A stretch of 64,000 nt of DNA from Chrysophaeum taylorii. Its lineage: Eukaryota > Sar > Pelagophyceae > Pelagomonadales > Pelagomonadaceae. The translations under genes and the position numbers were made by a program. The stretch spans positions 62,001 to 126,000 of the forward strand of contig JAQMWT010000671.1 of the NCBI GenBank assembly GCA_029834535.1. The letters are read 5' to 3'. Shown piece by piece: positions 4,301 through 61,678 of the stretch. Every line of letters begins with the position of its first letter. Position 1 is the stretch's first letter. The notes under the pieces were generated by a model. The model was not told the origin of the DNA, made no database searches, and saw only the letters and a program-made list of their open reading frames with translations.

Positions 4301-4849
4301 CATCACCGACACCGACCGATCCTGATCCCCGAGCGCGCTCGCGAACAGCCGAGCTAGCTCGCCCACTTGCGACGTCAGGTTTCGCGCGACCGTCTCCGAC
4401 AACTGCAGCAGCAGCAGATGCGCCAGCTCGCGGTGCGCGGGGGACGCGTGCGACGCGCACTGCGATATGAACTGCAACAGCTCGTTCCACCTACCCCCGG
4501 GCAACAGTACGCGCGCCAGACTCGACGACAGCGCCGCGATCGACTTGCGCACCGCCCGTTCCGGCTCGTTCGCGAGCCGCGCCAACAACACCTCCTTCAC
4601 GTGCTGCTGCGTCGTCTTCTTCAGCTTACGCCACATCTTCACGATCTTCTTCCGCAGCACCACGGCCGCGATCTGCCGGACTGCCGGGTTCCCCGACATC
4701 TCCAGCTGATACATCAGCGCCGGCACGCACCCCGCCTTCTTCAACACCGGCTTCAACGCCTCCTCGGCCTGCTTGATCTGCCGCGTGTCGGGGTGCAGCA
4801 GCGCGCTCAAGATCGCCTCCATGCGCTGATTTGTACCCTCGCTGCTCAT
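1319..4849 (-). CDS. Importin-beta family nuclear transport receptor (importin-4/Kap123-like)
   Basis: The gene encodes 1,176 aa as a single intronless reading frame. The first ATG in frame is at 4849; the frame opens 12 nt earlier only with a TTG. Helical HEAT-type repeats run the whole length. The N-terminal region (residues ~1-110: ILSALLHPDTRQIKQAEEAL, then NPAVRQIAAVVLRKK) is typical of the importin-beta N-terminal, Ran-binding end. An acidic insert (residues ~650-720, with Asp runs encoded by a GTC/CGT-type microsatellite at 2685-2714) breaks the repeats, as in importin-4/5 class receptors. A Gln run lies near residue 345. The expected role is carrying cargo such as histones or ribosomal proteins through the nuclear pore in a Ran-GTP-dependent cycle. 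Length (about 1,080-1,180 aa in the family) and repeat pattern agree. Assignment to importin-4 rather than importin-5 is tentative. Confidence 0.92.
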   Translation of the reverse strand: MSSEGTNQRMEAILSALLHPDTRQIKQAEEALKPVLKKAGCVPALMYQLEMSGNPAVRQIAAVVLRKKIVKMWRKLKKTTQQHVKEVLLARLANEPERAVRKSIAALSSSLARVLLPGGRWNELLQFISQCASHASPAHRELAHLLLLQLSETVARNLTSQVGELARLFASALGDQDRSVSVMALRACCAFVATLSTDDEALLFRDLVPPMVTVARQAAEARDDVVLQAFFDAFAELAQTPVPVIAPHATSVVQLLLDVMRAPEDLLDRQTRDGAAHVLGTLAEWKPKLVGKQGLVPGIVEACVMIMARTDSSKSGAAGALFMSTPLQRLKAEEEALLSQQQQQQQQVEKDGEYEGPSPQEMAQTTLDQIALHVPLKWSLEPTLGLAARCLGDPEQATRRAGAAAIGVVAEGFQDALREKHLGQVLRLLEEAAARSDAATRECLCFAYGQLAEHCQPEIVAYAASVLPVVFAFLDDSRAAVVGTSCYVLEMFCESMDAGQIMPLLDPLMQRLLALLGHQLLGIREMAAAAVGSAAVAAGEKFGPYLDGAAGALGPNITLTDERAWELRGRSLEALGHIALAVGPERFQPIWEPALASATSNLSSFDSTELAEYSYGFFANVAKVMRTRFSPLLPQLVPHLIEVIARRDGASFKFEEEDDDGPATGEGGDGPRMAFLDDDDDGGIIEREEGGADDEWEDDPPKPASSSPARATNDDDDDDDDDLAGQAVLQVRTALMNVKKAAIVALGNAAEYTEGAFAGYLDQAYQVLKEMTIYFHHEIRERCAIALQQLVHAACVARAGPALADAYREGLAAQLAFRKRKEPRAIKWTKGDATARLPDAGLATFADECVGLLIKLVDEDESKEVVAIACEALVELAQDVGPAALIPSNHHLAVADQVVRLAKGEATCQTLLNADDDDYDRAILGVPKGEDDHQDHDNVLMDNVADLCGTLGKVAGGAMGPAKSAELFQAFAKYVAPHRSSSDRAMAIGCYAELCSELPPEYAALQHFATLHPLLVQACADTHANVARNAAFGLGSLFANAPALARPHAPAALQTLWPLIERAKTAPPERKDADQAASDNAVASMCRIISIDFDSAPVDQVLALILPLLPLQEDASENKTVYTCLLRLIDQNHAALANHAPLLQRAIAQAVDQAKIDDDHIASLVAQACARFPPPS

Positions 4850-5293
4850 CCCTCTCGTCAACCCACGGCACGACGACGACGCATAATAATAATAATATCG
4901 CTAGCTTAGGGTTTAGGCACAATAACGCAAAGAGAGAGAGAGAGAGAGAGAGAGTATTCTTCATTTCATTCAGGGGGCACACACACGCGCAATAATACGT
5001 GTCGTGTGCATGCACGGAGGGCACTACTTCCTTATTACTTACTGCCCCGTGGTACATGTAATAACATGACAACACCACAGCATGGTACTCGGAAAACGGG
5101 CTGCCTGCCATCTCAATCGTCGTCGTCGTCGTATTGGTAATAATAATAATAACAAGACTTTTATTAGCACATACGACGTCTTCGTTTATTAAAATTCGGC
5201 TCTCCCATGTTCAGAAATGATTGGCCTTCCAACAACAAGATATTATTATGCGCGGAAGAACTGCCACAAACAAAAACAAGCCCGGGTTTTTTT
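4850..5293. other. Intergenic region with microsatellites
   Basis: No gene is seen. It holds a short AAT run (~4884-4897), a long AG run (~4930-4954), CGT triplets (~5117-5133) and another AAT run (~5140-5153). It separates the start of the importin gene from the 3' end of the next gene on the same strand. Confidence 0.7.
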
Positions 5294-8200
5294 TTATCGC
5301 GGAGAGGCGGGGTGGTCGTCGTCTTCAAAGAAGTAGAACCCGGGGCCTTCGTAGTAGACCGTCGGACTCGACCAGTCGGAACCGCACCGTTCCGTAGCGC
5401 GCAGCGGCGAGTCCTCAACCGACTCGTCCACGTCCTCCAGCAACACGGTGTTGACGGCGTTGGACACGATCTCGCTCGCGAGCCTGCTGTAGACTGCGTG
5501 GACTTCCCGATCGCCGATGGCGATGGCGTCGTCGATCACGTCCTCCAGGATGCGGTCGCACCACAGCTCGGCCACAACCCCCGCGGCGAGGCCCGCTCGC
5601 TCGGCGCGATCGCGACGCCTCAGAACTTCTTCTTCTTCTCTAACGCTCGACTCTTCCTCGAGCGGCAGCGTCCGACGCCAATGGACCAAAGCCAACCCGA
5701 GGCGCCGGCGCGCGAGGCGCACGAGGCCGTGGGCAATAAGCACGAGCCCCCGGCGCCGGCGCGCGACGACGCGCTTTGCAGCGTCTCGCCTCGCTTGCTC
5801 GCCCCACTCGCTCGACAGCGCAGCCGCGTGCGCGTCAAGTGCGGCGACCTGATGCTCGCGCCGTACCCTGCGCCGCTCTTCTAATGTTCGCTGCACCGCT
5901 GTCTGCTGCTGCACGCGGCGTTCCACGACGTCCGCGAGCTCGGGGCGCCGTTTCTTCTTCGCCATCGCGCCGCGCCAGAGTGCACCCAACCGCTGCGCAC
6001 CTCGCCGCGTCGCGGAGGTGTGCCGCCTCGTCCGAAGCCCGCGCGCCGCGGCCTGGATCTTACCGACGGCCGCAGCGGCGCGCGCGTGGTCGTCGGCGTC
6101 GCGCGAGCGGCGGAAGAAAGCGCGGAACGCCCGCCGAAGCGCGTCGAGAGCGGCACGCTCGCGTTGCGCGACCCTCCTACCGAGCCACGCCCTCGTTACC
6201 CACTGGATCCTTTCAGCAGCGCGCTCGCGTTGGTGGGCGATCTCGCTGCGCTCGTGGCGCGCGCGCTCCGAGAGCTCGGCGCGACGGCGACGCGTCTCTT
6301 CGAGAGCTGTTCGCCGCGCCGAGGCCACGGCGTCACCGGCGGCGCGGCGAAACAGCTCCGCCGTCGTGTTGCTCCGAAGCGCGTCGGCGTCCCGCCGTGC
6401 AGTGGCCTGCTTCTCGACCTCGGCCGCTGCTGCTTGAAGCTCGCGCTCCGCTACGCGCGCACGTAGCGACGCCGCGTCCGCGCGCGCGCGCATCTCGACG
6501 GCGTCGCTCGCCGCCGTCGCCTCGATCTGCCGATGCCGCGCCTCCTCGAGCGCCGCGCTCTCTCGGACTGCAACAATCCAGCTTGGTGGCGCCTCGCGAC
6601 TTGCCTCGAGCTCGACTCGGGCGGCGCGCGCTTCGCACGCAGCGGCATCGCGCGAACCCTCGAGGCGAGTCGCGAGGTGCCGAACCTCCCGCCGCGACGA
6701 CTTCAATACGGCCTCCTCGAGTGCCGCCACGGGATCCTTGTCTGCCGCCAAAATCCTCGTTGCCGCGACAAGCCCTTCTCGGGGGTTCGCGGCGATGCGG
6801 ACGTGCGAGTCGAGGAGGCGACTCGGGCTGCCTTTTTTTTCCACTCGCGAGACCCTGCTTTTTTCCCCTCGGGGTCTCGCGACGGCATCAGCCGCTTGAA
6901 CCAACAAAGAAGCAGAGGTAGGTTTCCTTCTTCTTTTGTTGGCGGCGACGCGGCGCACGCCGAGCAGCCGGCACGGGCCGAATGAGGCTGCGAGCGCGGC
7001 CCGGAGGCGATGGTCTTCTCCGAGGTCGCGGGCAACGGCCCGCGCCTCGGCAGCCGACGTAGGCGTCGTGCGGCACTTGACGACACCCTCGCCAGCGATA
7101 TTCTTCTCGAGCAGTGCCGGCTCGATCACCCGTGCCAACTGCGCCCGCGCCTCCCGCTGGTCGCGTAACGCTTCGATGGTGCGTGTTTCCTCAAACTTGA
7201 TCGAGAAAGTGACGAGCTCCGAGCAGCAGCGGCGGCGGTGCTTAGTAGTCTGTTTTCTTTGGCTCGAAGGAAGCTCTGCGATCTTCGCGAGCTTCATCGT
7301 AGTCGCGCAGAGGGTGGCGGTCACGAGGACAGTGTGCCACGTGCGCCACAACGTCGCGTCGCGCAGCACTCGGAGCTTGTCTTTGCGGCCCGAGGCTTCC
7401 AACGAAGGCTCGCGCCCCGCTTCCGCGTCGAGCGCGTTGACGAGACGCGCCAGGGCCACGGCGTCAGCGTCGGGGCAGAGCTCGCGCAAAGCTGGATCCT
7501 CGAACACCTGCTCCCATGGCTGCTGTTTCCTGGAGGAGGCATCCTTGAGCGAGGCGAGAGCCGCCGCCTTGGAAGGCGACGGCTCTCGAACGCTCCACGA
7601 CGAGTACGTCGTCTCGAACGTTGCGGTCCCTCGACGAGCGCCGGTGAGTGGGTCCACCAGCGTGACTACTACTGAATTTTTCTTCGTCTTTGAGCCGTCA
7701 TCGTCCTGCTCCAACAAGAGTGGGAGGAGCGCGACCTCTCCAACGGCGATCCGATTTCGCCACGTGACGCGCTCGTCGAGGATGGACGCGCGCAAGGTGG
7801 GGGCGAGACCAATCTCGTCATCGGTGCGAAGCGCATCGTGCGCGGTGCTCACGAAGAGCGTCACTGGCGTACGTCGCGCGTCCTCTTGAGAAGACCTGCA
7901 CCACGCCGTAGCACCACAAAACGACGTCGGCGTGCGCACGTGCGCGCCACCGCCGGCGCCCTTCACGGCGACGCGCGCGAAGACGCGAGCTCCTTTCTCG
8001 GCGAGCGCCGCCGCCGCCTCCTCGAGCGCTGCATCGACGAGAGTCACGCTCAGGTATCCCTGTGTATGCGGCACGAACACAGCCTCGAGGTCGCAGAGCG
8101 CCTCGTGCGCGCGAGAGGACACTTTGCCAGGCCGCGCGACGGCGCTCTCGACAACTTCTCGCGCGTCGAGCTCCGCGATTACTGCAGCAGCCTCGTTCGT

Positions 8201-30566: not shown

Positions 30567-33500
30567 CTAGGCGCTTAAGCGCAAAAGATCCCCATCGGTA
30601 TTTTCTTGGTCGTCGTCCTGACCCTTCTGCTTAACAACTTGAAAGGAGCTTGCTGACTCTGGGCGCTTGGTGGAGAGTCTTTTCCGGTAGCAAGTGAACA
30701 ACGCGAGCATAATGCACATCGTCCCAAAGAAGACAACGAGGACGGAAACGATAATTGCAGTCCTATATTTACTCTTGCTGACAGTTTTGTTGTTCTTGGA
30801 AGAGCCACGAGTTGACTCCCTGACCAACTCGACTTCCACACAAACAGACTCCGAGCATTCGAGCCCATCGCCGCACAGGTCGGCGCCTTCCACGCACGTC
30901 TCGCTAGCGCTTAGCACAACCGCCGAGTCTAGCAGGTTGCGGTCATTCATCGGTTGCACGGGGCGGTACTGCGCGCAAGAGGCTGGTGGGTTAATGGGCT
31001 ACAAAGCACGAGACTCACGTTCGACGGGTTGGGGAAAATGTTCTGGAAGTAATCATACTGTGACTGTGACATGGGCGAGACCGTCTTCATTACGTGCCAC
31101 TCGACGATCTCAGAGCAGGGAGGCGTGGTCAACGAGCCCTTGTATCGCCAGAACTCCCCTGAGAGAATGTCGGCGAAAAAGTTGAGGTCGACGTCCTCGT
31201 CGATCGCCACGCCGGCACTCTCCGTCTCGGTGGTCGGCGCCTCCTCCCACTTGATGGTCTCCAGAAATGAGTTGTCTTCGTCGCCGGTCACGTTGAAGAA
31301 AATGCCAAGAACCAAGAGGCTGTCGATGCCGCCTTCGTCGTCGTAAGCGGCGTGCACAATGTGCATCTCGCCATCCTGGGAGGCCATGACAAGCGATCAT
31401 AGCACAAACTCACGTGATATTCGCCATCGACAGTGTGCTCTGAAAGCAGGTGGAAGTGAAACTGGAGTGCTATGTAGTCGCGGCTGTTGTGGACGACCTT
31501 GCCCGCAGCGCTCGACAGCACGACCTCGAGGTTATGGCCCGTGTTGATAATCTCACGGCCAGAGTCAGGTGAGTACGAGAAGGCGATTAGGGTCTTGCCA
31601 GCCAAGGGCGTGAATGCGGATGCGGTGACGAGGTCGACGGGTGACTGGTAGCTCCCGTCGCAATCGTCCCACTCGCCGGTTGGGCACGAGCCCCAGTCCG
31701 CAGGTGCGAGGCAGTCATCACACGTCTCGCCAAGAGGGTCGAGGCCCTCCTCGTATCCATAATGACACTCTACCGTCGCGGTTGCGCAGACATTGTCGAC
31801 ACAGTCAAGGGAATCATCGACGTCGCCGCAGAGGTCGGCACCAACGACACACGCCTCACCGACACCGAGCACAACAGCTGAGTCGAGCAGGTTGCGGCCG
31901 TTCATCGGTTGCACGGGGCGGTACTGCGCACGACAAACAGCGAGATAAACGGGGTGCAAAGCACGAGACTCACGTTCGAGGGGTTGGGAAAAATGCTCTG
32001 GAAGTAGTCGTACTGGGACTGCGACATAGGCGAGACTGTCTTCATCACATGCCACTCGACGATCTCCGAGCACGCCGGCGTGGTCAACGAGCCCTTGTAC
32101 CGCCAGAACTCGCCCGACAAGATGTCGGCGAAAAAGTTGAGGTCGACGTCCTCGTCGATCGCCACGCCGGCGCCATCGGTCTCGGTTGTCGGCGCCTCCT
32201 CCCACTTGATGGTCTCCAGGAACGCATTGTCCTCATCCCCGGTCACGTTGAAGAAGATGCCGACGACCAAGAGGCTGTCGATACTGCCTTCGTCGTCGTA
32301 AGCGGCATGCACGATGTGCATCTCGCCATCCTGAGAACCGATGACAAGCGATCCTGTCAAAGACTCACATGGTATTCGCCATCAACAGTATGCTCGGACA
32401 GAAGGTGGAAGTGAAACTGGAGCGCAACATAGTCGCGGCCCTTGTGCACAACCTTGCCGGCGGCGCTCGTAAGCACGACCTCGAGGTTGTGACCCGTGTT
32501 GATGATTTCGAGACCAGAGTCCGGCGCGTATGAGTGTGCGATCTGGGTCTTGCCGGCAGCCGGCGTGTAGGCATCGGCGGTAACGAGGTCGATGGGCGAC
32601 TGGTACATGCCGTTGCAGTCGTCCCACTCGCCGGTTGGGCACGAGCCCCAGTCCGCAGGCGCGAGGCAGTCGTCGCACGTCTCGCCGAGCGGGTCGAGGC
32701 CCTCCTCGTAGCCATAGTGACATTCGACCGTCGCACAGACGTTGTCGGTACATTCAAGGGTATTATTGTCGTTGCCGCACAAGTCGGCGCCAACGACGCA
32801 CGCCTCGTCTAATCCTAGTACAACAGCCGAGTCGAGCAGGTTGCGGCCGTTCATCGGTTGCACGGGGCGGTACTGCGCACGACAAACAGCGAGATAAACG
32901 GGGTGCAAAGCACGAGACTCACGTTCGAGGGGTTGGGAAAAATGCTCTGGAAGTAGTCGTACTGGGACTGCGACATAGGCGAGACTGTCTTCATCACATG
33001 CCACTCGACGATCTCCGAGCACGCCGGCGTGGTCAACGAGCCCTTGTACCGCCAGAACTCGCCCGACAAGATGTCGGCGAAAAAGTTGAGGTCGACGTCC
33101 TCGTCGATCGCCACGCCGGCGCCATCGGTCTCGGTTGTCGGCGCCTCCTCCCACTTGATGGTCTCCAGGAACGCATTGTCCTCATCCCCGGTCACGTTGA
33201 AGAAGATGCCGACGACCAAGAGGCTGTCGATACTGCCTTCGTCGTCGTAAGCGGCATGCACGATGTGCATCTCGCCATCCTGAGAACCGATGACAAGCGA
33301 TCCTGTCAAAGACTCACATGGTATTCGCCATCAACAGTATGCTCGGACAGAAGATGGAAGTGAAACTGGAGCGCAACATAGTCGCGGCCCTTGTGCACAA
33401 CCTTGCCGGCGGCGCTCGTAAGCACGACCTCGAGGTTGTGACCCGTGTTGATGATTTCGAGACCAGAGTCCGGCGCGTATGAGTGTGCGATCTGGGTCTT

Positions 33501-35692
33501 GCCGGCAGCCGGCGTGTAGGCATCGGCGGTAACGAGGTCGATGGGCGACTGGTACATGCCGTTGCAGTCGTCCCACTCGCCGGTTGGGCACGAGCCCCAG
33601 TCCGCAGGCGCGAGGCAGTCGTCGCACGTCTCGCCGAGCGGGTCGAGGCCCTCCTCGTAGCCATAGTGACATTCGACCGTCGCACAGACGTTGTCGGTAC
33701 ATTCAAGGGTATTGTTGCCGTCGCCGCACAAGTCGGCGCCAACGACGCACGCCTCGTCTAATCCTAGTACAACAGCCGAGTCGAGCAGGTTGCGGCCGTT
33801 CATCGGTTGCACGGGGCGGTACTGCGCACGACAAACAGCGAGATAAACGGGGTGCAAAGCACGAGACTCACGTTCGAGGGGTTGGGGAAAATGCTCTGGA
33901 AGTAATCGTACTGGGACTGCGACATAGGCGAGACTGTCTTCATCACATGCCACTCGACGATCTCCGAGCACGCCGGCGTGGTCAACGAGCCCTTGTACCG
34001 CCAGAACTCGCCCGACAAGATGTCGGCGAAAAAGTTGAGGTCGACGTCTTCGTCGATCGCCACGCCGGCGCCATCGGTCTCGGTTGTCGGCGCCTCCTCC
34101 CACTTGATGGTCTCCAGGAACGCATTGTCCTCATCCCCGGTCACGTTGAAGAAGATGCCGACGACCAAGAGGCTGTCGATACTGCCTTCGTCGTCGTAAG
34201 CGGCATGCACGATGTGCATCTCGCCATCCTGAGAACCGATGACAAGCGATCCTGTCAAAGACTCACATGGTATTCGCCATCAACAGTATGCTCGGACAGA
34301 AGGTGGAAGTGAAACTGGAGCGCAACATAGTCGCGGCCCTTGTGCACAACCTTGCCGGCGGCGCTCGTAAGCACGACCTCGAGGTTGTGACCCGTGTTGA
34401 TGATTTCGAGACCAGAGTCCGGCGCGTATGAGTGTGCGATCTGGGTCTTGCCGGCAGCCGGCGTGTAGGCATCGGCGGTAACGAGGTCGATGGGCGACTG
34501 GTACATGCCGTTGCAGTCGTCCCACTCGCCGGTTGGGCACGAGCCCCAGTCCGCAGGCGCGAGGCAGTCGTCGCACGTCTCGCCGAGCGGGTCGAGGCCC
34601 TCCTCGTAGCCATAGTGACATTCGACCGTCGCACAGACGTTGTCGGTACATTCAAGGGTATTGTTGTCGTCGCCGCACAAGTCGGCGCCAACGACGCACG
34701 CCTCGTCTAATCCTAGTACAACAGCTGAGTCGAGCAGGTTGCGGCCGTTCATCGGTTGCACGGGGCGGTACTGCGCACGACAAACACACGGGTTAAACGG
34801 GGTGCAAAGCACGAGACTCACGTTCGAGGGGTTGGGGAAAATGCTCTGGAAGTAATCGTACTGGGACTGAGACATAGGCGAGACTGTCTTCATCACATGC
34901 CACTCGACGATCTCCGAGCACGCCGGCGTGGTCAACGAGCCCTTGTACCGCCAGAACTCGCCCGACAAGATGTCGGCGAAAAAGTTGAGGTCGACGTCCT
35001 CGTCGATCGCCACGCCGGCGCCATCGGTCTCGGTTGTCGGCGCCTCCTCCCACTTGATGGTCTCCAGGAATGCATTGTCCTCAATGCCGGTCACGTTGAA
35101 GAAGATGCCGACGACCAAGAGGCTGTCGATACTGCCTTCGTCGTCGTAAGCGGCGTGCACGATGTGCATCTCGCCATCCTGAGAACCGATGACAAGCGAT
35201 CCTGTCAAAGACTCACATGGTATTCGCCATCAACAGTATGCTCGGACAGAAGGTGGAAGTGAAACTGGAGCGCAATATAGTCGCGGCCGTTGTGCACAAC
35301 CTTGCCGGCGGCGCTCGTAAGCACGACCTCGAGGTTGTGACCCGTGTTGATGATTTCGAGACCAGAGTCCGGAGCGTACGAGTAGGCAATTTGCGTCTTG
35401 CCGGCAGCCGGCGTGTAGGCATCGGCGGTCACGAGGTCGATGGGCGACTGGTACATGCCGTTGCAGTCGTCCCACTCGCCGGACGCACACGAGCCCCAAT
35501 CGGCCGGCGCAAGGCATTCATCGCACGGCTGGCCGAGCGGATCGAAGCCTTCCTCGTAACCTGAGCGCCGGTCTCTCACCCCGGTAGGTGCGATGCGCGC
35601 AACACACCATACTGGCAACCCTCATCGAGGCGGCGCAAGCGGAAGCCAAAGGCATCGCCCAGGAGCAGGACGATTACGGCGAAGGCCTTCAT
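30567..35692 (-). CDS. Membrane-anchored alpha-carbonic anhydrase with five tandem CA domains
   Basis: Predicted 12 exons, about 1,550 aa. Exon 1 (35692-35608) encodes a signal peptide (MKAFAVIVLLLGDAFGF). Exon 2 is 35560-35217, exon 3 35178-34822, exon 4 34770-34267, exon 5 starts 34228, and so on. Every further CA domain is an exon pair of 504 + 357 nt, split by a 38-nt and a ~50-nt intron, all phase 0. Each domain has the alpha-CA catalytic set: HFH and EMH (three zinc His), SEH Glu, NTGHN (proton-shuttle-position His) and SLTTPAC (Thr199/200). A Cys-rich linker (CVVGADLCG, CDDCLAPADWGSC) separates domains. The last exon carries a TM segment (TAIIVSVLVVFFGTMCIMLA) and an acidic ~45-aa tail. 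It should catalyse CO2 + H2O <-> HCO3- + H+ outside the membrane, probably for carbon acquisition. All five sites look intact; activity is inferred. Confidence 0.9.
32357..35205 (-). repeat. Near-identical 949-950 bp tandem repeats (CA modules)
   Basis: Matching points recur at 32357, 33306, 34255 and 35205 (periods 949, 949, 950). The middle repeats differ at only a few positions visible by eye, mostly in the linker around the NNTLEC codons, and their introns are also nearly identical. This indicates recent duplication or gene conversion. Confidence 0.9.
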
Positions 35693-39486: not shown

Positions 39487-42400
39487 TTAGGCGCTTAAGC
39501 GCACAGGATCGTCATCGGCATTTTCGTGGTCGTCGTCTACCATCTTCTGCTCAACAACTTTAAATGACTGTGGGCTCTTGGTGGAGAGGCCCTTCAGGTA
39601 GCAAATAAACAAGGCGAGCATAATAAACATGGTGCCGAAGAAGACAACGAGGACGGAAACGATAATTGCAGTCCTAAATTTACTCTTGCTGACAGTGCTG
39701 CTGTTCTTGGAAGAACTACGAGTCGAATCGGTGGCCAACTCGACTTCAACACAAACAGACTCCGAGCATTCGAGCCCATCGCCGCACAGGTCGGCGCCTT
39801 TCACGCACGTCTCGCTTGCGCTTAACACGACCGCCGAGTCTAGCAGGTTGCGGTCATTCATCGGTTGCACGGGGCGGTACTGCGCGCAAGAGGCTGGTGG
39901 GTTAATGGGCTACAAAGCACGAGACTCACGTTCGACGGGTTGGGGAAAATGTTCTGGAAGTAATCGTACTGGGACTGCGACATGGGCGAGACCGTCTTCA
40001 TAACGTGCCACTCGACGATCTCAGAGCAAGGAGGCGTGGTCAACGAGCCCTTGTATCGCCAGAACTCCCCTGAGAGAATGTCGGCGAAAAAGTTGAGGTC
40101 GACGTCCTCGTCGATCGCCACGCCGGCACTCTCCGTCTCGGTGGTCGGCGCCTCCTCCCACTTGATGGTCTCCAGAAATGAGTTGTCTTCGTCGCCGGTC
40201 ACGTTGAAGAAAATGCCAAGAACCAAGAGGCTGTCGATGCCGCCTTCGTCGTCGTAAGCGGCGTGCACAATGTGCATCTCGCCATCCTGGGAGGCCATGA
40301 CAAGCGATCATAGCACAAACTCACGTGATATTCGCCATCGACAGTGTGCTCTGAAAGCAGGTGGAAGTGAAACTGGAGTGCCATGTAGTCGCGGCTGTTG
40401 TGGACAACCTTGCCCGCAGCACTCGACAGCACGACCTCGAGGTTATGGCCCGTGTTGATGATCTCACGGCCAGAGTCAGGTGAGTACGAGAAGGTGATTT
40501 GGGTCTTTCCAGCCAAGGGCGTGAATGCGGATGCGGTGACGAGGTCGACAGGTGACTGGTAGTTCCCGTCGCAATCGTTCCACTCGCCGGTCGAGCACGA
40601 ACCCCAGTCAGCAGGCGCGAGGCAGTCGTCACACGTCTCGCCGAGCGGGTCGCGGCCCTCCTCGTAGCCGTAATGGCATTCAACAACCGCTGTAGCGCAG
40701 ACATAGTCGACACAGTCAAGTGAATCATCGACGTTGCCGCAGAGGTCGGCACCAACGACACACGCCTCTCCCAAGCCGAGGACAACCGCCGAGTCGAGCA
40801 GGTTGCGGCCATTCATTGGTTGCACCGGGCGGTACTGCGCACGACAAAAATGCTGGTTAACGGGATGCAGAGAACGAGACTCACGTTCGAGGGGTTGGGA
40901 AAAATGCCCTGGAAGTAATCATACTGGGACTGCGACATGGGTGAGATCTTCTTCATCACGTGCCACTCGACGATCTCGGCGCACGCGGGCGTGGTCAACG
41001 AGCCCTTGTAGCGCCAGAACTCGCCCGACAAGATGTCGGCAAAGAAGTTGAGATCCACATCCTCGTCGATGGCCACGCCGGCACCTTCGGTCTCGGTGGT
41101 TGGCGCCTCCTCCCACTTGATGGTCTCCAGGAACCCGTTGTCCTCATCCCCGGTCACGTTGAAGAAGATGCCAAGGACCAAGAGGCCGTCAATGTTACCT
41201 TCGTCGTCGTAAGTGCCGTGCACGATGTGCATCTCGCCATCCTGCGGGAAAGTAAGAGACAGGTACGATCCAGACTTGCGTGATATTCGCCATCGACAGT
41301 ATGCTCGGACAGAAGGTGGAAGTGGAACTGGAGCGCAATGTAGTCGCGGCCATTGTGCACAACCTTGCCGGCGGCGCTCGTAAGCACGACCTCGAGGTTG
41401 TGACCCGTATTGATGATTTCGAGACCAGAGTCCGGCGCGTATGAGTATGCGATCTGGGTCTTGCCAGCAGCTGGCGTGTAGGCATCGGAGGTAACGAGGT
41501 CGACAGGTGACTGGTACATGCCGTTGCAGTCGTCCCACTCGCCGGTCGAGCACGAACCCCAGTCGGCAGGCGCGAGGCAGTCGTCGCAAGTCTCGCCGAG
41601 CGGGTCGCGGCCCTCCTCGTAGCCGTAATGGCATTCAACAACCGCTGTAGCGCAGACATTGTCGACACAGTCAAGTGAATCATCGACGTTGCCGCAGAGG
41701 TCGGCACCAACGACACACGCCTCTCCCAAGCCGAGGACAACCGCCGAGTCGAGCAGGTTGCGGCCATTCATTGGTTGCACCGGGCGGTACTGCGCACGAC
41801 AAAAATGCTGGTTAACGGGATGCAGAGAACGAGACTCACGTTCGAGGGGTTGGGAAAAATGCCCTGGAAGTAATCATACTGGGACTGCGACATGGGTGAG
41901 ATCTTCTTCATCACGTGCCACTCGACGATCTCGGCGCACGCGGGCGTGGTCAACGAGCCCTTGTAGCGCCAGAACTCGCCCGACAAGATGTCGGCAAAGA
42001 AGTTGAGATCCACATCCTCGTCGATGGCTGTGCCGTTACCGCCATTCTCGGTAAGCGGCGCTTCACCCCACTTGATCGTATCGAGGAAAGTGTTGTCTTC
42101 GTCGCCGGTCACATTGAAGAAGATACCAATAACCAAGAGGCTGTCGATGCTGCCACCATCATCGTATGCGCCATGTACGATATGCATCTCGCCATCCTGC
42201 GCGGCAACGAGCAGTCAGCGCGACGCAAGTGTAAGCTTCTTACGTGGTATTCGCCGTCGACGGTGTGCTCCGAGAGAAGGTGGAAGTGAAACTGGAGCGC
42301 GACGTAGTCGCGACCGTTGTGGACGACCCTGCCTGCCGCACTTGACAGGACGACCTCGAGATTGTGCCCGGTGTTGATAATTTCAAGGCCAGAGTCAGGC

Positions 42401-42727
42401 GCGTACGAGTAGGCAATTTGCGTCTTGCCGGCAGCCGGCGCGTAGGCATCAGCGGTCACGAGGTCGATTGGTGACTGGTACATGCCGTTGCAGTCGTCCC
42501 ACTCGCCGGACGCACACGAGCCCCAATCAGCCGGCGCGAGGCAGTCATCGCACGGCTGGCCGAGCGGATCGAAGCCTTCCTCGTAACCTGAGCGCCGGTC
42601 TCTTAATTCCCCCGTTACGTTCGATGCGCGCATTGAACCCACCATACTGGCAACCCTCGTCGAGACGGCGCGAGCGGAAGCCGAGGGCGTTGCCTTGGAG
42701 CAGGATGATCACGACGAAGGTCTTCAT
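39487..42727 (-). CDS. Membrane-anchored alpha-carbonic anhydrase with three tandem CA domains
   Basis: Paralogue of the five-domain gene, with the same plan in 8 predicted exons (about 975 aa). Exon 1 is 42727-42643 (signal peptide MKTFVVIILLQGNALGF) and exon 2 starts at 42587. Three CA domains lie at about 42587-41840, 41790-40880 and 40840-39930. The last exon (~39882-39487) has a TM segment (TAIIVSVLVVFFGTMFIMLA) and an acidic tail. Zinc His (HFH, EMH), SEH and SLTTPAC are present in all three domains. The final domain, TM and tail are much closer to those of the five-domain gene than to the other domains of this gene, so the whole gene duplicated before the internal expansions. Domain 1 differs most (WGEAPLTENGGNGTAIDEDV). 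The expected role is the same: extracellular CO2/HCO3- interconversion at the cell surface. Confidence 0.9.
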
Positions 42728-43287: not shown

Positions 43288-43715
43288 TAAAAATCACTGT
43301 GCCCCTGGTAGAGAAAGATGGCAGTGGTAGTGCTGCCCTGACGCCCTGTCCCTAGCGACACAAAGAGCAGCACACAGCGATTTTATTGGTGATTAGGTGT
43401 GAGAGTGATAGAGGGGGGGGGGGTTACTAACCCTAAATCAAGCTTTGTATCTCTAGTCCGGTTGTGGTGCCCGCGGGGTACTGACGTGACTAAAATCGGC
43501 GGCGCGGCGATGCACTTCGCCGAGATATCGGCTTGAAGCCAGCTGGGGAACTATATCCGAATGAGAGTTTTGCGTGGTGGTGCTTTGACGTCAACAGTAT
43601 CGTTTTCTCGCCTTAAACGTTGGCCCGGGGTTGCGTGTCGTTTCGTGGCCAGTATGCGCGTCCACATTTCCGTCTAGAGCATCAGTTGGCTGGCGCCGCC
43701 AGACCTGCACCAAAT

Positions 43716-43885
43716 TCTTTTCTTTTCTTTTCTTTTCTTTTCTTTTCTTTTCTTTTCTTTTCTTTTCTTTTCTTTTCTTTTCTTTTCTTTTCTTTTCTTT
43801 TCTTTTCTTTTCTTTTCTTTTCTTTTCTTTTCTTTTCTTTTCTTTTCTTCTCTTTTCTTCTCTTTTCTTCTCTTTTCTTTTCTTT
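43716..43885. repeat. (TTTTC)n pentanucleotide microsatellite, about 34 units
   Basis: A nearly pure TTCTT tract of ~170 bp with a few C-for-T interruptions at its right end. ORFs running through it on both strands are artefacts of the repeat. Confidence 0.95.
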
Positions 43886-44518: not shown

Positions 44519-46897
44519 TCAGAAGAAGCGGATGTCGCGGTTGTCTTCTTCCGGTGGTGGTGCGAGCGATGGGCGTTGCGGCGAGAGGTGGTCGGGCCGC
44601 GGATGGAGGCCGGTCTCCGGGACAGGCGTGTCATGAGCCTCCCCCCGATCGTGGTTGGTGGGCCGTTGGTTTTGGTGAAGAGGCGGATTTTTCGGCAAGT
44701 CGTCCGAGTCGAGGTAATACGTGTCAGAGGGTGGTCTTTGGTCGATGGGGCTCGCGCGTACGACATCCTGGAGTTTGCGTCCGAAGGCGTCGTCGGGCTC
44801 ACCCTGAAGGGGCGACGACGAGCGCCGAACCTCGGCGTGGAGTTGGTCGTAGTACTGCCTAAGTTTCCGCTTTTGCTTTTCGGCGCGGCGGCGATACTTG
44901 GCTTCCTTGTCTGCGGCGAGCTGGCGCGCGGCCTCGCGTTCCTCCTCCTCGCGGCGCAGCATCTCGTTTTCTTGCTCGCTCTTGCGAACGAGCCACTCGC
45001 GCGTCTGCGCGTGCTTTCTCATTCGCGCCTTGGTCTCTCGAAGTTCGCGCTTGAGCGCTTCCTCGCGCTCGACTTCCGGGTCGATCCAGTCGCCGCCCGT
45101 TCGGCTTTGGCGACCCTGGCGCACGCGGTACTTGGGTCCCGCCGCGGCGCGCGCCTCGGCCGCGAGCAAGCTCGCCCTGTCCGGCTCTGGCGGCTTCTTG
45201 AGAGCCTTTCTTTTGCTCTCGTCGACGACGCTCCTCGGCGGCGGCGGCGGCGCTGCCGCCGCCGAGGCAAGCGCGGTGCCTCCTTGGTTCTCGTCGTCGT
45301 CGTCGTCGTCGTCGCCACCCTGCGGGGGCGACGGAAGCTCGACCAATTCGTTGTCGTCGCCTCGAAAGTCGACGGCCTCGAGCGCGGCTTCAATGCGCCG
45401 CCGCATCTCGTCCTCTTCGATTTCAAAGGCAAAAAAGTTTGACGAGGTCTCGCGTACCGACGTCAACGCTGCCTCGAGTTTGGTGTTTCGCTGGACGAGG
45501 CGCCTGTATTTCGCGGCGCGGTCGAGCGGCGAGTCGCTTCGTCGGTCCGGGTGCGGTGCTCTCGCGTCCGGTACCAACGCCGGCAGCAGGTTTTTCTTTG
45601 CGGCGCCGGCGAAAGAGGTGATCGACACCTTGTCGTCGTCGTCGTTTTTTTTGTTGTTGTTGTTGGGAAGCAGCCGCGCGCGGAGGTCTCGGTTCTCGAT
45701 CTTGAGGCGTTCGAGCTCGTTCAAGAGACGCTCGAGGTCAAAACCGCCGTCGAGCTTGGCGTCGCGCGTTATGGACTGCAGCATGGCCCGGAGGCGCACC
45801 ACCTCCGACTGGAGTCGCTGCACCATGGCGTAGTCGATGGGTCGGTGTTCGTTTCGCCTCACGTTCGCCGTGACGCTGCGCGCGCGGTCGGCAAAGCGCA
45901 GCGTCGAGACCGATTCGTCGATGCAGTCGGCTGCGGGCGACAGCGTGGCGATGAGTCTCGTGATGGAATTGCCCCCCAGCGAGTCCTGGAGGAGGCGCGT
46001 CAGCTTTGAGTCGCGGTACGGGACGTGGACGTTCGTTCCGGGATCCTTGGCGGCCTTGGCGAGCGCGGCGATGCACTTGCCGAGAGTGTGGAGGGACTTG
46101 TTTATGTTCGTCATTTCGGCGACGCGGTCCTCGACCATGGTCTGGTAGATGTCCCACTTTTCCGACCCAGCGAGGTCGACGAGATTGAACTTTGAGCGCA
46201 GCGTCGACTCGCCGTCGCCCTCTACTCTTTTCTGCTCGATAAGCACCGTGAAGATCGAGTGGGACCGCGAGGACGCCGTGTTCATGTGCGTCTCCCGGAC
46301 CGCCCGGTTGTCCTCGCCCGCTTTGAGCAGCTGCATGCAGTCCTGCGCCGACCGCACGGCGTACTCGCTCAAGCCGCTCACGTAGTTTGCGCCGCCGCCC
46401 GTCTCGTCGTCCAATCTGATTTCGAGCGGCGTCGACCGCGTCGGGTCGCGCAGCATGTCGTACACCTGCTCGCGGTATATCTGCACGAACGAGGCATACA
46501 CGTGGCCTGTTGTGATGGCGCCAAACAGCGCGTCGACGGCCCTTGGTATGAGTCCCGCCTCGCTTCCTCCTCGCCACCCGGGCGGACCGAACATCGTGTG
46601 AGTTTTGCCCGAACTCGTTTGCCCGTACGCCAAAATGGTTGCGTTGTAGCCGCTCGCAACCTGGGTGGCGCAGTCGGCCACGTGTTCATACACTGCTTCC
46701 TGCGTCGCCGTCGGCCCGAGCACGTGGTCGAACGCGCACCGCAGTTGATGCCTCGCTTCGCTCCCCTCAAATATCACCTCTGGCTTACTCTCGTGCGCCC
46801 GAACCACCGCCGTCGTCTTGCGATCGCTCTCCGTCTCGATCACCGGACGGATGCGCACCAGGACCTTGATGCGCTCCCGCAGCACCTTCTCCTCCAT
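44519..46897 (-). CDS. Kinesin, N-terminal motor
   Basis: 792 aa from ATG 46897 (the open frame extends upstream through a CAA/CAG-like run with no better start). The motor domain spans residues ~1-335: ERIKVLVRIRP, the P-loop AYGQTSSGKTHTM, switch I NTASSRSHSIF, switch II LVDLAGSEK, and the microtubule-binding stretch VPYRDSKLTRLLQDSLGGNS. LRFADRARSV is followed by a neck with coiled coil (QRLQSEVVRLRAMLQ, LERLKIENRDLRARL). The remainder is charged and helical, with Arg/Glu-rich coiled coil and a disordered Pro-rich end. It is an ATP-driven microtubule motor, probably plus-end directed by its N-terminal motor position. The 'SEKWDIYQ' after switch II replaces the usual 'SER' and may mark a particular protist subfamily; I do not assign one. 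Confidence 0.95.
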   Translation of the reverse strand: MEEKVLRERIKVLVRIRPVIETESDRKTTAVVRAHESKPEVIFEGSEARHQLRCAFDHVLGPTATQEAVYEHVADCATQVASGYNATILAYGQTSSGKTHTMFGPPGWRGGSEAGLIPRAVDALFGAITTGHVYASFVQIYREQVYDMLRDPTRSTPLEIRLDDETGGGANYVSGLSEYAVRSAQDCMQLLKAGEDNRAVRETHMNTASSRSHSIFTVLIEQKRVEGDGESTLRSKFNLVDLAGSEKWDIYQTMVEDRVAEMTNINKSLHTLGKCIAALAKAAKDPGTNVHVPYRDSKLTRLLQDSLGGNSITRLIATLSPAADCIDESVSTLRFADRARSVTANVRRNEHRPIDYAMVQRLQSEVVRLRAMLQSITRDAKLDGGFDLERLLNELERLKIENRDLRARLLPNNNNKKNDDDDKVSITSFAGAAKKNLLPALVPDARAPHPDRRSDSPLDRAAKYRRLVQRNTKLEAALTSVRETSSNFFAFEIEEDEMRRRIEAALEAVDFRGDDNELVELPSPPQGGDDDDDDDENQGGTALASAAAAPPPPPRSVVDESKRKALKKPPEPDRASLLAAEARAAAGPKYRVRQGRQSRTGGDWIDPEVEREEALKRELRETKARMRKHAQTREWLVRKSEQENEMLRREEEEREAARQLAADKEAKYRRRAEKQKRKLRQYYDQLHAEVRRSSSPLQGEPDDAFGRKLQDVVRASPIDQRPPSDTYYLDSDDLPKNPPLHQNQRPTNHDRGEAHDTPVPETGLHPRPDHLSPQRPSLAPPPEEDNRDIRFF

Positions 46898-47703
46898 CAA
46901 CAACAAAAACAACAACAACAACAACAAAGAAGAGCAACGGCCCTATCGCATCCTTAACCTTATAATAATAATAACAAGGCTCCGTCCACTTCAAACTTTT
47001 GGGCCGTTTCGACGATTATGGTCTGATCGATTGGAAAGAGCAGCCCGGACTGACTGACTGACTGACTGAGTGACTGGGTGACTCAATGGAGGTGCGGCAT
47101 TTCCCAAACCAATGCTCCCGGCCGTCCTCCGGCGTCGTCGCCTCGCAGAAATAACACGTCTGTTGCCGCGAGCTGTGTGCATCGACGTTTTTTTTGAAAG
47201 ATGCGTCTACCTACAGTCTCCTTCGGCGACGGCTAACAACAGAGTACCCACAAGCTTTTTTTCCGGGTTCGACTCGTTGTGTGTTGTGCTCTACGGCACT
47301 ACACAAGTTGAGTCGCCCCAACATACATAAAATGCCGTGATCGCGGGCTATGGAAGGACACGCGTAAACGCAACGCCGCTCTTGCAGCTGGAAGGAAAAA
47401 AAGCTCTCGCGGCGACGACACCGATGCGGATGACTTTTCCGAGCGTAGGCGATAAGAGCAGAGAACGACGGCCTTGCTGCTGCTGCTGCTGCTGCTGCTG
47501 AGTCGCTCGCTCCTCGCCGCAGATGGACCTCCTGCCGCGGAATTTCACGTGGTGGTGCTACTAACACTAAGGGATGCTGGCTTGCTGCGAGGTGTAGGCG
47601 GGTCTCCTTGATTTGCGTTGTCGTCGAGAAAGAAGGAGAGTTGCCCAGGCCACTACAAAGTTTTTCGCCAAGGAGGGTATTCTTCTCGCGTTACCCTCTA
47701 TCT
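46898..47703. other. Intergenic between two divergent genes
   Basis: No gene seen. It contains a CAA run (46900-46927), a TAA run (~46959-46974), GACT tetranucleotides (~47048-47078) and a CTG run (47475-47499). Promoters of the kinesin (-) and the small protein gene (+) should lie here. Confidence 0.6.
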
Positions 47704-56347: not shown

Positions 56348-57040
56348 TCATGATCGCGTGAGGATGTAGGTGGTCTCGAAACACCACGCGCAGCCCTTTT
56401 GAGACCAGAACGGGTCGAGGGGGATGCGGTCTTCGGTGTGGATGCGCTCGACCTCGAAGTGGGGGTTTGCGAGAGCCCGGAGCGCGGGTTCCGAGATGTT
56501 GAAGGGCGGGCCGAGCTTTCCATCGACGAAGGGTGGGTGCTCGACGGCGACGAGAAGGACGCGTCCTCCCGATTCGACGTTCCTGGCGAGGGTTCGGACG
56601 TAGGCGGGTCGATCCGCCGGATCGACGGCGACGATGCCCGCGCGGTCCCAGGCCGCTTGGAAGCGCTTGCCGTCCGGGAGGACGGCGAGGGGGTCGAGGG
56701 CGAAAAAGTTGCCGACGACGTAGCGGACGGTCGCCTTGGAGGGGAGCTCGATGACGCTGAGTTCGCCACTGGGGGTTGCTTGGCTGGAGGCCACGACCGC
56801 ACCATGGTCGTTGACGAATTCCGCGCGCGCGAGCGGGACGCAGTCGACGCCCACGACCTCGAGGCCCCTCTCGGCGAAGAAGGCGAGGTCGACCGACTTG
56901 CCGCAGAGGGGGACAAGAATTCGCGTGGATGCCCGGAGGAGGCCGACGGTGCGGACGAGTGCCGGATGGACCTCGTTGAGGTGAAATGTCGTGCGGCCAG
57001 CCGCCCACCTCGCTGACCACTCACTCTCGACAGCGGTCAT
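56348..57040 (-). CDS. Thiopurine S-methyltransferase-family enzyme
   Basis: 230 aa from ATG 57040, the usual family length. The N-terminus has WSARWAAGRTTFHLNEVHP (family W-x(2)-G-x(2)-FH-type start). SAM-binding motif I is VPLCGKSVDLAFFAERG followed by VVGVD. The mid part has the AWDRAGIVAVDP motif typical of TPMT/TehB-like enzymes. It ends with a short C-terminal strand (WCFETTYILTRS). It should methylate S, Se or Te (or halide/thiocyanate) nucleophiles; algal members are often linked to volatile halide or sulfide methylation. The exact substrate cannot be read from the sequence. No targeting peptide is visible. Confidence 0.9.
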   Translation of the reverse strand: MTAVESEWSARWAAGRTTFHLNEVHPALVRTVGLLRASTRILVPLCGKSVDLAFFAERGLEVVGVDCVPLARAEFVNDHGAVVASSQATPSGELSVIELPSKATVRYVVGNFFALDPLAVLPDGKRFQAAWDRAGIVAVDPADRPAYVRTLARNVESGGRVLLVAVEHPPFVDGKLGPPFNISEPALRALANPHFEVERIHTEDRIPLDPFWSQKGCAWCFETTYILTRS

Positions 57041-57439
57041 ATTATGTTCGGAACTTCAACTCGAGTTCATAATTAACAACTACCTACATAGTCTTCTTGT
57101 TTGTTCGTTCCCATAATAATAATATCCTGATAGAAAAAAAAACGAAAAAATCGATCGCCGTCCGAATCGGAGAGGAGGGTTCATCATCCACCGCATCATC
57201 CAAAGCAAAAAAAAAACAAAGGAGGACGTTGGCCGTCGCCAGCCGCCAGGTGCGTGATGATGTCCAACTCACCTGTGTTGCTGACTTCTGACGACTTGGT
57301 ATTCATACTGGCTGAACGCGCGTGCGCTCTCTCATAGGTGAGGCCTGTGAGCGAGAAGCCGACTCATGCACCACTCTGACTTGTCGTGACGTCCCAGAAT
57401 CGATCGATTTCCGAGGCCTCCTTATTCGTCGCGTCGCAG

Positions 57440-58489
57440 ATGGCCGGGTTCGACAAGGCGAGCGTGGACGTGGCGGAGGTGTTGGGGATCGATGGCGTCG
57501 CGTCGGAGCTCGGGGTGCACGGCGAGGCGGTGAAGCTGCAGAACGGGGGCTGCGCGGCTAATTACTTAATCGGCGACGACGTCGTGGTCAAGGCCGTCGT
57601 AGGCCCCGACGCGCGGGAGCTCGCTGCCCTCCAGGTGCGCGTGCTCGAGGCCGTTGCGGGGACGCGCGTCGGGCCGCGGCCGATCGCGGGGCCCTGCGCC
57701 TGCGAGACGACGAGGGGCGCGGGCTGGGCGATCGCGATGGAACGCGCGCCGGGCGAGGCCGCGAACGTCCTGGAACGCGAGGGGAAGGTTTCAAAAGCGG
57801 CGGCCTGCGGTGCGATTGGTGACGCCCTCGGAACCCTGCACGCCGCGAACCTCTTCGTCGACGAGGCTACGAATCTCGGGGACCCAAGGTTCCTCGAACG
57901 TTTTTTGCGGGTCGACGGCGAGGTGGAGGTCGAATTGAGCAAAGGCTCGGCCGACGACCCGTTCGTCGGGTGGGTGCGCGCCGACGACTGGCGTCGCTTG
58001 AAAAAGGTGAGGGCAGCGCTGGCGCGCACCGACATCCCCGCCGGCCTGCTCCACGGCGATCCCTACACGGACAACGTTCTCCTCGTCGTCGACGACGGGA
58101 CCGTAGCCTCGTCGAAGCTCGTCGACTGGGAGGACGCGTGCATCGGACCCCTCTGCTACGACGTGGCCTGCGCGCTCGTCGCGGCTGCATTTGGAGGAAG
58201 AGAGGGGTTTGAGGTTTCTGTCGCCAAGAAGTTGCTCGAGGCGTACACTCGACGTCGGAAAATGGATGAGACGGAAGTCCGGGCGCTTCCCGACCTCATG
58301 TTTGCCAACGCCGTCGCCTGCGCCTTGTACCGTTGGCACCAGTTCCACGTGGTCGACCCCGAGGCCCCGGCGGCCGCCAAGGCCGCGCACCTCGAGATGC
58401 AGGCCATCGCCACCAAGATCGAAAACGAGAAGTTCCTCCTTGACGACGACTTGTTGTTATTATTAGGAAATTCCTCAACGGAAAGATAG
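57440..58489 (+). CDS. Aminoglycoside-phosphotransferase-fold small-molecule kinase
   Basis: 349 aa from ATG 57440 (upstream part of the frame opens only with GTG). An N-terminal lobe with GGCAANYLIGDDVVVKAVVG (nucleotide-binding Lys in VVKAV) leads into a helical middle. The C-lobe holds the Brenner motif LHGDPYTDNVLL (catalytic Asp and Asn) and the metal-binding LVDWEDACIGPLCYDVA. This is the APH/homoserine kinase II/fructosamine-kinase-like superfamily. The physiological substrate is unknown; fungal and algal members phosphorylate sugars, choline or amino acids. Antibiotic resistance should not be assumed. It has its own promoter divergent from the TPMT-like gene (400 bp apart). Confidence 0.85.
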   Translation: MAGFDKASVDVAEVLGIDGVASELGVHGEAVKLQNGGCAANYLIGDDVVVKAVVGPDARELAALQVRVLEAVAGTRVGPRPIAGPCACETTRGAGWAIAMERAPGEAANVLEREGKVSKAAACGAIGDALGTLHAANLFVDEATNLGDPRFLERFLRVDGEVEVELSKGSADDPFVGWVRADDWRRLKKVRAALARTDIPAGLLHGDPYTDNVLLVVDDGTVASSKLVDWEDACIGPLCYDVACALVAAAFGGREGFEVSVAKKLLEAYTRRRKMDETEVRALPDLMFANAVACALYRWHQFHVVDPEAPAAAKAAHLEMQAIATKIENEKFLLDDDLLLLLGNSSTER

Positions 58490-59896: not shown

Positions 59897-60058
59897 CTGG
59901 TGGTAGTAACCGCGGCGGCGCCTTCTTTTCCAGCAGTCAATAGTTGGACTCCTCCTCGGTGAGGGTAATAAATGTTGTAGACCAAGGAAGATACTAGAAA
60001 ATAAATAAGTCCTCCACCTGTCGACAACGCCTTGTGTTATAGGATTGGTTGATTGATT

Positions 60059-60312
60059 ATGGGCAACGAAACGTCGTCGGTCCCCGAGGATGATGAGGAG
60101 GAGGATGGGGAGACGCGATTGGTCATCCACAGCGCCCTGACGCAGGAGTACAAGGATGCGAGGTTCTCGACAATCGAGGACTGCTACGGGTCTTTGGTCG
60201 AGACATTTGGGAGCGGGATGCTGACCAAGTTCACCCTCACCGACGAGGAGTTCGACGTGGTGTTTTGCCTCGCATTTTCGGACCCCGCCGAACACTTTTC
60301 TCAGATCTGGAG

Positions 60313-60343
<31 letters not shown>

Positions 60344-61678
60344 GCGAACGTTTTCCACGTATTCTGCGCGCTCTTTCTTCTCTGCGAGGAGGAGCTCCAC
60401 GGCTTCGACAACAAGACGGCAGCGATCTACAAGTTGTTCGACTTTGACGGAAGCGGGGCCCTGAACCAGGTCGAGTTGGAGTGTTTGCTCCAGGCCTGCG
60501 TGGCGGGGTTGTCGCGCGCGACAGGCACGCCCCCGCGCGCGACCGAAACCCAAATCGAAGCCATGGCCGCCGCCGCCGTCGCGTCGAGTCCAGACGGCGA
60601 GGCGACGCTCGGCGTCTTGAAGGAGTGGCTCGGAACCCGGCGCGACGTGCTCACCTATCTCTCCGAGTTCATGGAAGCGCGGATGGTCGTCGACTACCAA
60701 CGTCGCGTCGAAGACCAATTCCAGACCACGACGCAACAATTCATCGCCGCTGCAAGGGGCGAACCTCCCGAGATATCGACCTCGGAAGTCACCGAGATCA
60801 TCCGGGCCCTCCCGGGGAGTCCCCCCACCAACGCCGAAATTGCGGCGTTCGTGGCTCTCGTCGACGACAGCGCCGGAAAAAACGGACGAATAGGTTTCGA
60901 CGAATTCGCCGACGCGATTTTGCCCTGGATTTCATTTTCGATCGTCGACGACGACGCCACGGGGACCCTCTCCCCCGACGAATTGAAGCTTCTCATCTGG
61001 ATATCGGGGGGAGAAAACGGTCCCGAGCCTTCCTCGCACGTCGTCCAGCGCGCGACGCGCGCGATGGACTTCGACAAGGACGGCGACGTCGTCCGCCTCG
61101 AGTGGCTCAAGTACAACGCGGGCACCGACCCCGCCACCGGCACGCTCAAATTCTCCAAGGCGGCGCGAGACCTCTTCAAGCAAATGGACGCCGACGAGTC
61201 CGCGATAGTCAACTGCCGCGAACTCGAGCGCGTCTTCGAATCGCAGTTGCAAGACCTCCTCACCAATCTCGAGGACGACGCGATCACCCAGGTCTCCCCG
61301 ACGACCCGCGCCGAGATCGAGTCATTGATCCACGACGCCGCCCACGAGGTCGCCGATTTGATCGATGCCAACGCCGACGGCATCATCTCCTGGGACGAGT
61401 TCTCCGTCCACGTCGACATCATCACCTCCAAGCAGGACAAAATCAGACAGTTCGCCAAACTCGTCTTGTCCACGCACCCGCGAGCCACAAAACCAAAATG
61501 CTCGGCCATCCACAGAGCTAAGAAGAAACGGGCATCAATCCGCGTCCTGGCGCGCCTCGGGAGAGACCTTGGGAAAAGGAGAAACACCGTCAACGCGGCG
61601 ATCGACGATCTCAAAAAATCCGACGCCGACGACAATCGCCGTCGATTCACCACGGCGATGGCCCCCATCCGCGCCTAG
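60059..61678 (+). CDS. Multi-EF-hand protein with N-terminal myristoylation signal
   Basis: 539 aa from ATG 60059 (the upstream TTG in frame is not a start). MGNETSS fits the N-myristoylation consensus (Gly2, Ser6), so membrane attachment is likely. EF-hand loops: DFDGSGALNQVE (~130), DDSAGKNGRIGFDE (~275), DDDATGTLSPDE (~300), DFDKDGDVVRLE (~345), a degenerate DADESAIVNCRE (~380) and DANADGIISWDE (~440). An Asp run at ~88-95 comes from a GAC microsatellite. The C-terminus is basic (RAKKKRASIRVLARLGRDLG). It should be a Ca2+-regulated adaptor or sensor. It is divergent from the SMP-like gene (162 bp between start codons), so the two may share a promoter. Confidence 0.85.

Follow-up and report, generated by a model that had tools for sequence, protein, structure and literature searches.

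Five tandem alpha-carbonic anhydrase domains on a predicted membrane-anchored chain in Chrysophaeum taylorii

A 64,000-nucleotide stretch of the Chrysophaeum taylorii genome (NCBI GenBank assembly GCA_029834535.1, contig JAQMWT010000671.1, positions 62,001 to 126,000 of the forward strand), here called the window, contains a gene, CA5, that encodes five alpha-carbonic anhydrase (CA) domains and one transmembrane (TM) segment on a single chain. We propose that CA5 is a membrane-anchored CA concatemer that faces the secretory or extracellular space and boosts CO2/HCO3- interconversion for carbon uptake, with a probability of about 0.55. CA5 (35692-30567) and CA3 (42727-39487) are our labels for two genes of the window, whereas C142, C398, C402 and C366 denote other contigs of the assembly.

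Gene structure and domains of CA5

In the spliced model, CA5 lies on the minus strand from 35692 to 30567 and has 12 exons separated by 11 GT-AG introns of 38-51 nt. The frame is open throughout the 1545-aa product and there is no internal stop. The features are as follows.

30567..35692, minus strand: CA5 coding region from ATG to stop, 12 exons, 1545 aa, five alpha-CA domains (spliced model; five PF00194 matches)
35645..35692, minus strand: signal-peptide-like N-terminus, aa 1-16, MKAFAVIVLLLGDAFG, from hydropathy
34732..35525, minus strand: CA domain 1, aa 41-275, split by two introns (Pfam, motif checks)
33783..34575, minus strand: CA domain 2, aa 328-562 (Pfam, motif checks)
32834..33626, minus strand: CA domain 3, aa 615-849 (Pfam, motif checks)
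31885..32677, minus strand: CA domain 4, aa 902-1136 (Pfam, motif checks)
30930..31722, minus strand: CA domain 5, aa 1191-1425, SLTTPPC form (Pfam, motif checks)
34564..34701, minus strand: Cys-rich linker between domains 1 and 2, 46 aa (sequence)
33615-33752, 32666-32803 and 31711-31854, minus strand: similar linkers (sequence)
30687..30755, minus strand: predicted TM segment, aa 1484-1506 (hydropathy peak 2.82)
30567..30686, minus strand: C-terminal tail of 39 aa plus stop codon (sequence)

An earlier sequence-only reading of this DNA had counted 12 exons and five alpha-CA domains on one chain, and had asked for a Pfam search. Both counts held. PF00194 (Carb_anhydrase) matched the spliced protein in five stretches, with E 2.4e-209 and 692.9 bits for the whole protein (cut-off 27). 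In a six-frame search of the unspliced DNA, all ten CA5 pieces, two per domain, scored above the PF00194 cut-off, which excludes chance. Chance similarity and mere open frames are also ruled out by the five strong Pfam stretches together with the synonymous-biased divergence described below. Among the Pfam matches to the spliced protein at E 0.01, neither the CDCA domain of zeta-CAs nor a CaMKII-AD-like domain of iota-CAs was present. The minor matches Zap1_zf1, Abp2, Phage_tail_C, DUF7291, HCBP_related, Nrd1-Seb1_dom2 and HupF_HypC had no stretch that passed alone and were taken as repeat-inflated noise.

The catalytic motifs were checked with five patterns (N[TN]GH, Q[FV]HFH, SEH, EMH[IM]V and LTTP) covering six residues, H64, H94, H96, E106, H119 and T199, in human CA II numbering. 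All were present in each of the five CA5 domains, including the three zinc His and the SEH noticed earlier. The same checks were passed by 15/15 domains of the four multi-CA genes of the assembly, with C398 domain 1 spliced by hand for this count. SLTTPAC, which had been ascribed to every module, is found in domains 1-4, but domain 5 reads SLTTPPC. When a single domain was compared with PDB sequences, the best match was 4c3t (E 6.5e-31), presumably from Thermovibrio ammonificans. The alignment is colinear over query residues 18-248 and includes QFHFH..SEHTV, the third His and SLTTPxC. PDB chains named Carbonic anhydrase 9 also match. The bacterial-type 4c3t is a 247-residue chain with one CA domain, compared with five in CA5.

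The gene model appears sound, on indirect support. The C142 domains are intronless and span both CA5 splice junctions without a gap in the alignment, which supports these junctions. Intron positions are common to CA5 and CA3. The repeat exons of 357 and 504-510 nt are multiples of three and the introns are in phase 0, so the frame survives duplication of a unit. If the first intron of a domain is retained, a TGA is reached in domains 1-4; in domain 5 the retained intron only shifts the frame, because its 38 nt are not a multiple of three. Separate single-domain genes are ruled out, since the spliced model has no stops between units and one signal-like start and one TM segment are common to all of them.

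The predicted product has a calculated mass of 168.8 kDa before processing and a pI of 4.14. Its four linkers are 46-48 residues long, rich in Cys and free of Lys and Arg. Each of repeat units 1-4 has ten Cys; NVT sites occur in 5/5 units and NNT in three linkers. This Cys content and these sites would agree with a secretory compartment. The single TM segment called earlier was recovered at aa 1484-1506. The tail had been described as short and acidic. It is short, and its outer part is acidic, but the membrane-proximal part is basic and the overall composition is 7 D+E against 8 K+R.

Sister genes and history of the arrays

A PF00194 search of the 70.8-Mb assembly gave 26 exon-wise matches: 16 on the window contig (two per domain, eight domains), five on C142, two on C398, one on C402 and two on C366. 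Four multi-CA genes were found, CA5, CA3, C142 and C398. One sister of CA5 is in the window.

39487..42727, minus strand: CA3, tandem sister with three CA domains, 8 exons, 970 aa, and the same signal/TM/tail plan as CA5 (spliced model; Pfam)

CA3 is 3.8 kb away from CA5 and had been missed in the sequence-only reading of CA5. One of its introns, at 41242-41279, opens with GC rather than GT (GCAAGT...CAG), and a TTCTT pentanucleotide array of 34 copies lies upstream of CA3 at 43715-43885. Neither window gene has exactly two tandem alpha-CA domains (five and three), whereas C398 has two. C142 carries five CA domains and a TM segment. Its frame is broken once in the assembly, after domain 3, at about 4022 on the minus strand, where the G run of the third linker has one G fewer than in the four other units. 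This may be either a sequencing error or a real lesion.

C402 contains a single 1267-aa open frame at 2827-6630 on the plus strand, in which an alpha-CA domain (E 2.9e-44) with intact catalytic motifs is fused to a Na+/H+ exchanger (E 1.2e-40). The nearest solved relatives of the exchanger include OsSOS1 and sodium/hydrogen exchanger 7. With this fusion, a single chain might link the release of CO2 to the export of protons. No alpha-CA/Na+/H+ exchanger fusion was recognisable, from titles or the beginnings of abstracts, among the papers listed by literature searches. A second CA-like locus at about 4160-5960 on the plus strand of C366 is, by eye, followed by exchanger-like frames; it looks degraded, being spread over several frames with stops. 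Its CA part has apparently lost zinc His (FLLHRG for VHFHFG, EVQFV for EMHMV), which may mean that the copy has decayed or that splicing is needed to read it.

Identity between CA5 repeats is 89.8-100%. Domains 2-4 (D2-D4) have the same amino-acid sequence, with differences of 1-4 nt in core DNA. In the tree, CA5 D2-D4 group together (bootstrap 96) and so do all five C142 domains (100); the CA5 and C142 arrays were thus amplified separately. CA5 D5 pairs with CA3 D3 (97.0% nt identity, bootstrap 100). Support at the remaining nodes is low (65, and 56 for the C398 pair), and this unrooted tree does not settle how the older duplications were ordered. When CA3 D1 and D2 were compared along the unit in ten 100-column windows, identity was 98-100% in the last four and 66-86% in the earlier ones, which points to gene conversion or a partial duplication.

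We calculated dN/dS by the Nei-Gojobori method for 14 hand-picked domain pairs. The CA5 and CA3 domains are under purifying selection: dN/dS was 0.065-0.109 in the eight CA5/CA3 pairs with non-synonymous changes, and the CA5 core pairs D2-D3 and D3-D4 had four and one synonymous changes, respectively, with no non-synonymous change. Three between-gene comparisons involving C398 or C142 gave 0.22-0.25 at high dS.

The exact number of five might have been inflated or collapsed by assembly or depend on the allele, the true number of middle units being lower or higher. The D2-D4 array of about 2.8 kb is easy to mis-assemble, with its identical protein and few core differences, so the exact count can be misjudged. 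The C142 copies are likewise nearly identical, with their frame-breaking one-base loss after domain 3. We nevertheless regard an error in the count as rather improbable. The CA5 units are not exact copies, as D2 and D3 differ at seven places in the unit alignment and the 3' end of D4 is distinct. All eight places in the assembly that were matched by unit DNA lie within CA5, CA3 or C398, the C142 sequence being too divergent to be hit; a second, haplotig-like copy was therefore not seen. That the sister genes carry two, three and five domains also speaks for real arrays. The multi-domain design does not depend on the exact unit count. An assembly duplication, which the sequence-only reading had considered fatal, would leave this design in place, but the exact copy number remains exposed to it.

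Exposure, function and alternative explanations

If our proposal is right, CA5 would be a type I membrane protein whose lumenal or extracellular part consists of five alpha-CA units, probably stabilised by disulphides. Each unit would act as a zinc site of its own, converting CO2 and HCO3- into each other, and several sites per anchor would raise CA activity per inserted protein where carbon enters the cell or moves towards the plastid. The high turnover suggested in the sequence-only reading is an inference. Arrays would lengthen or shorten through unequal exchange between repeats, which is suggested by sister genes carrying two, three and five domains. Published systems are cited here from excerpts of the sources. 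A precedent for such a gain is CDCA1, whose full-length three-repeat protein is described as having about threefold the activity of a single repeat (PMC4413181).

Outward or lumenal exposure of the domains is likely. The sequence-only reading placed the chain at the surface. Its five apparently active domains on a membrane-anchored chain find support in the gene structure, motifs and selection, but the signal-like start and TM segment are compatible with the plasma membrane and also with the ER or plastid envelope. The cell surface is therefore one of at least two possible sites and is unproven, and the ER or plastid envelope is a real rival. The string might face an internal space (ER lumen, epiplastid ER or plastid-surrounding membranes) and pass carbon to the plastid, a possibility that we hold tentatively and consider somewhat unlikely. 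By eye, CA5 reads GDA-FGFRLRR, with Phe after a plausible cleavage site. Three of the 84 light-harvesting matches of the assembly were checked in the same way: the residue directly behind the signal stretch is F in two of them and Y in the third, and a longer presequence comes next. Reported sites of alpha-CAs in other algae of the red lineage are the epiplastid ER lumen (Nannochloropsis CAH1) and the four-layered chloroplast membrane (Phaeodactylum) (PMC7215798). In CA5, the mature module with its conserved RRLDEG..C start begins only about eight residues after the possible cleavage site, which leaves hardly any length for a transit peptide. At the cleavage position, no aromatic residue is present in the paralogs, which read ASA-HRALDEG (C142) and VAA-RPRF (C398).

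Among algal plastid proteins of other kinds, polyproteins exist. The near-identical repeats of CA5 could suggest the same, namely that the linkers are cut and single soluble CA domains are released. We think this very improbable, as the four Cys-rich linkers lack Lys and Arg and so have no dibasic site; moreover, just the last unit would stay anchored, which would leave little purpose for a TM segment conserved in CA3. The domains might instead serve mainly as a surface coat or as an adhesive or mineral-binding scaffold, with catalysis secondary. The very acidic protein (pI 4.14) would suit such a role, and in the excerpts CA-containing matrix proteins of molluscs are linked with biomineralisation, and the armour of ciliates with a CA fusion (PMC13344042). 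Keeping the catalytic motifs in 15/15 domains would be unnecessary for a scaffold, and we give this explanation even less credence than the release of single domains.

Several points weigh against the proposed anchored concatemer. The signal-like stretch of CA5 is only weakly hydrophobic (hydropathy peak 1.64, threshold 1.6) and the CA3 and C142 starts fall under this threshold, while the Phe after the possible cleavage site leaves plastid-side targeting possible. The two C142 units compared differ by only two changes, both non-synonymous, and with so few, selection on C142 is unproven. A gain in activity need not be what selects for additional domains, since iota-CA activity is described as independent of repeat number (PMC6776030).

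The genomic context is on the side of the proposal. Matches to SLC4-type bicarbonate transporters in the assembly fall at two loci (five matches), and there are 84 light-harvesting matches. The CA classes searched in the assembly were alpha and beta. No beta-CA (PF00484) match was found in a six-frame search of the assembly, in which introns could hide a split gene because they are ignored; 9/14 control genomes were positive. If true, the absence of a beta-CA would be unusual for an alga.

A further idea, which we consider doubtful, is that repeat number acts as a dial. Unequal exchange would change how many active sites each anchored molecule carries, length alleles in populations would tune CO2/HCO3- conversion to carbon supply, and multi-site alpha-CAs together with the exchanger fusion would replace the beta-CAs of other algae.

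Genome context, known tandem enzymes and significance

Other genes of the window are as follows.

44522-46942, minus strand: kinesin motor domain gene (E 1e-97)
1322-4900: importin-like neighbour
56351-57055: TPMT-like methyltransferase
57380-58486: APH-type phosphotransferase
60053-61675: EF-hand protein

The assembly includes a plastid contig of 103.6 kb. The best solved relatives of one of the 84 light-harvesting matches include chains named FCPI and VCPI. Together with a ranking of PsaB, the light-harvesting genes and the plastid contig indicate an alga with a red plastid of the chlorophyll-c type; an exact 18S pattern gave no hit. The light-harvesting matches also run in tandem with near-equal scores (five on C539, five on C88 and three on C552), which suggests that recent amplification in tandem may be widespread in the genome. 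Relatives of the CA arrays elsewhere were not confirmed in scans of viral (390 pattern hits) and genome (163) contigs with a four-domain alignment, the patterns being narrow. A tblastn search of a phage collection gave only four records, unannotated and with 25-31% identity.

Human CA IX, presumably of type I membrane topology, has an alpha-CA ectodomain, a single C-terminal TM segment and a short tail like CA5, but only one CA domain. Double-domain CAs occur in Dunaliella and giant clams (PMC5879104). The dual-domain alpha-CAs of Dunaliella salina and Tridacna (DDCA/tgCA) share with CA5 the tandem domains on one chain, but have two domains rather than five (CA5) or three (CA3). For the clam protein, the excerpt gives one TM segment predicted inside the first domain and describes no near-identical repeats like CA5 D2-D4. 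CDCA1, the zeta-CA of the diatom Thalassiosira weissflogii, also has tandem repeats with separate active sites (PMC4413181), but it has another fold, three repeats and 80-82% identity between them, compared with 89.8-100% in CA5. Repeat number varies from two to four among relatives of the iota-CA LCIP63, as it varies among the arrays here; LCIP63 differs in its CaMKII-AD domain, in having no predicted TM segment and in its repeat-independent activity (PMC6776030). The remark in the sequence-only reading that a few algal enzymes have two domains is right for alpha-CAs but incomplete for CAs at large, as zeta-CAs have three and iota-CAs two to four.

No alpha-CA with more than two domains was found among the papers listed by literature searches, judged by title and beginning of abstract, and CA5 is the longest alpha-CA concatemer met within that scope. 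Tandem CAs were already known as two-domain alpha, three-repeat zeta and two-to-four-repeat iota enzymes, and the five-domain alpha-CA array is the new part. Arrays of two, three and five units occur within a single genome, and two of these arrays were amplified separately. They form a natural series for asking whether additional active sites on an anchor do speed up carbon supply. In the excerpts, the zeta- and iota-CA precedents disagree on whether more repeats give more activity. As a ready-made scaffold, CA5 might also serve the design of multi-site enzymes for CO2 capture.

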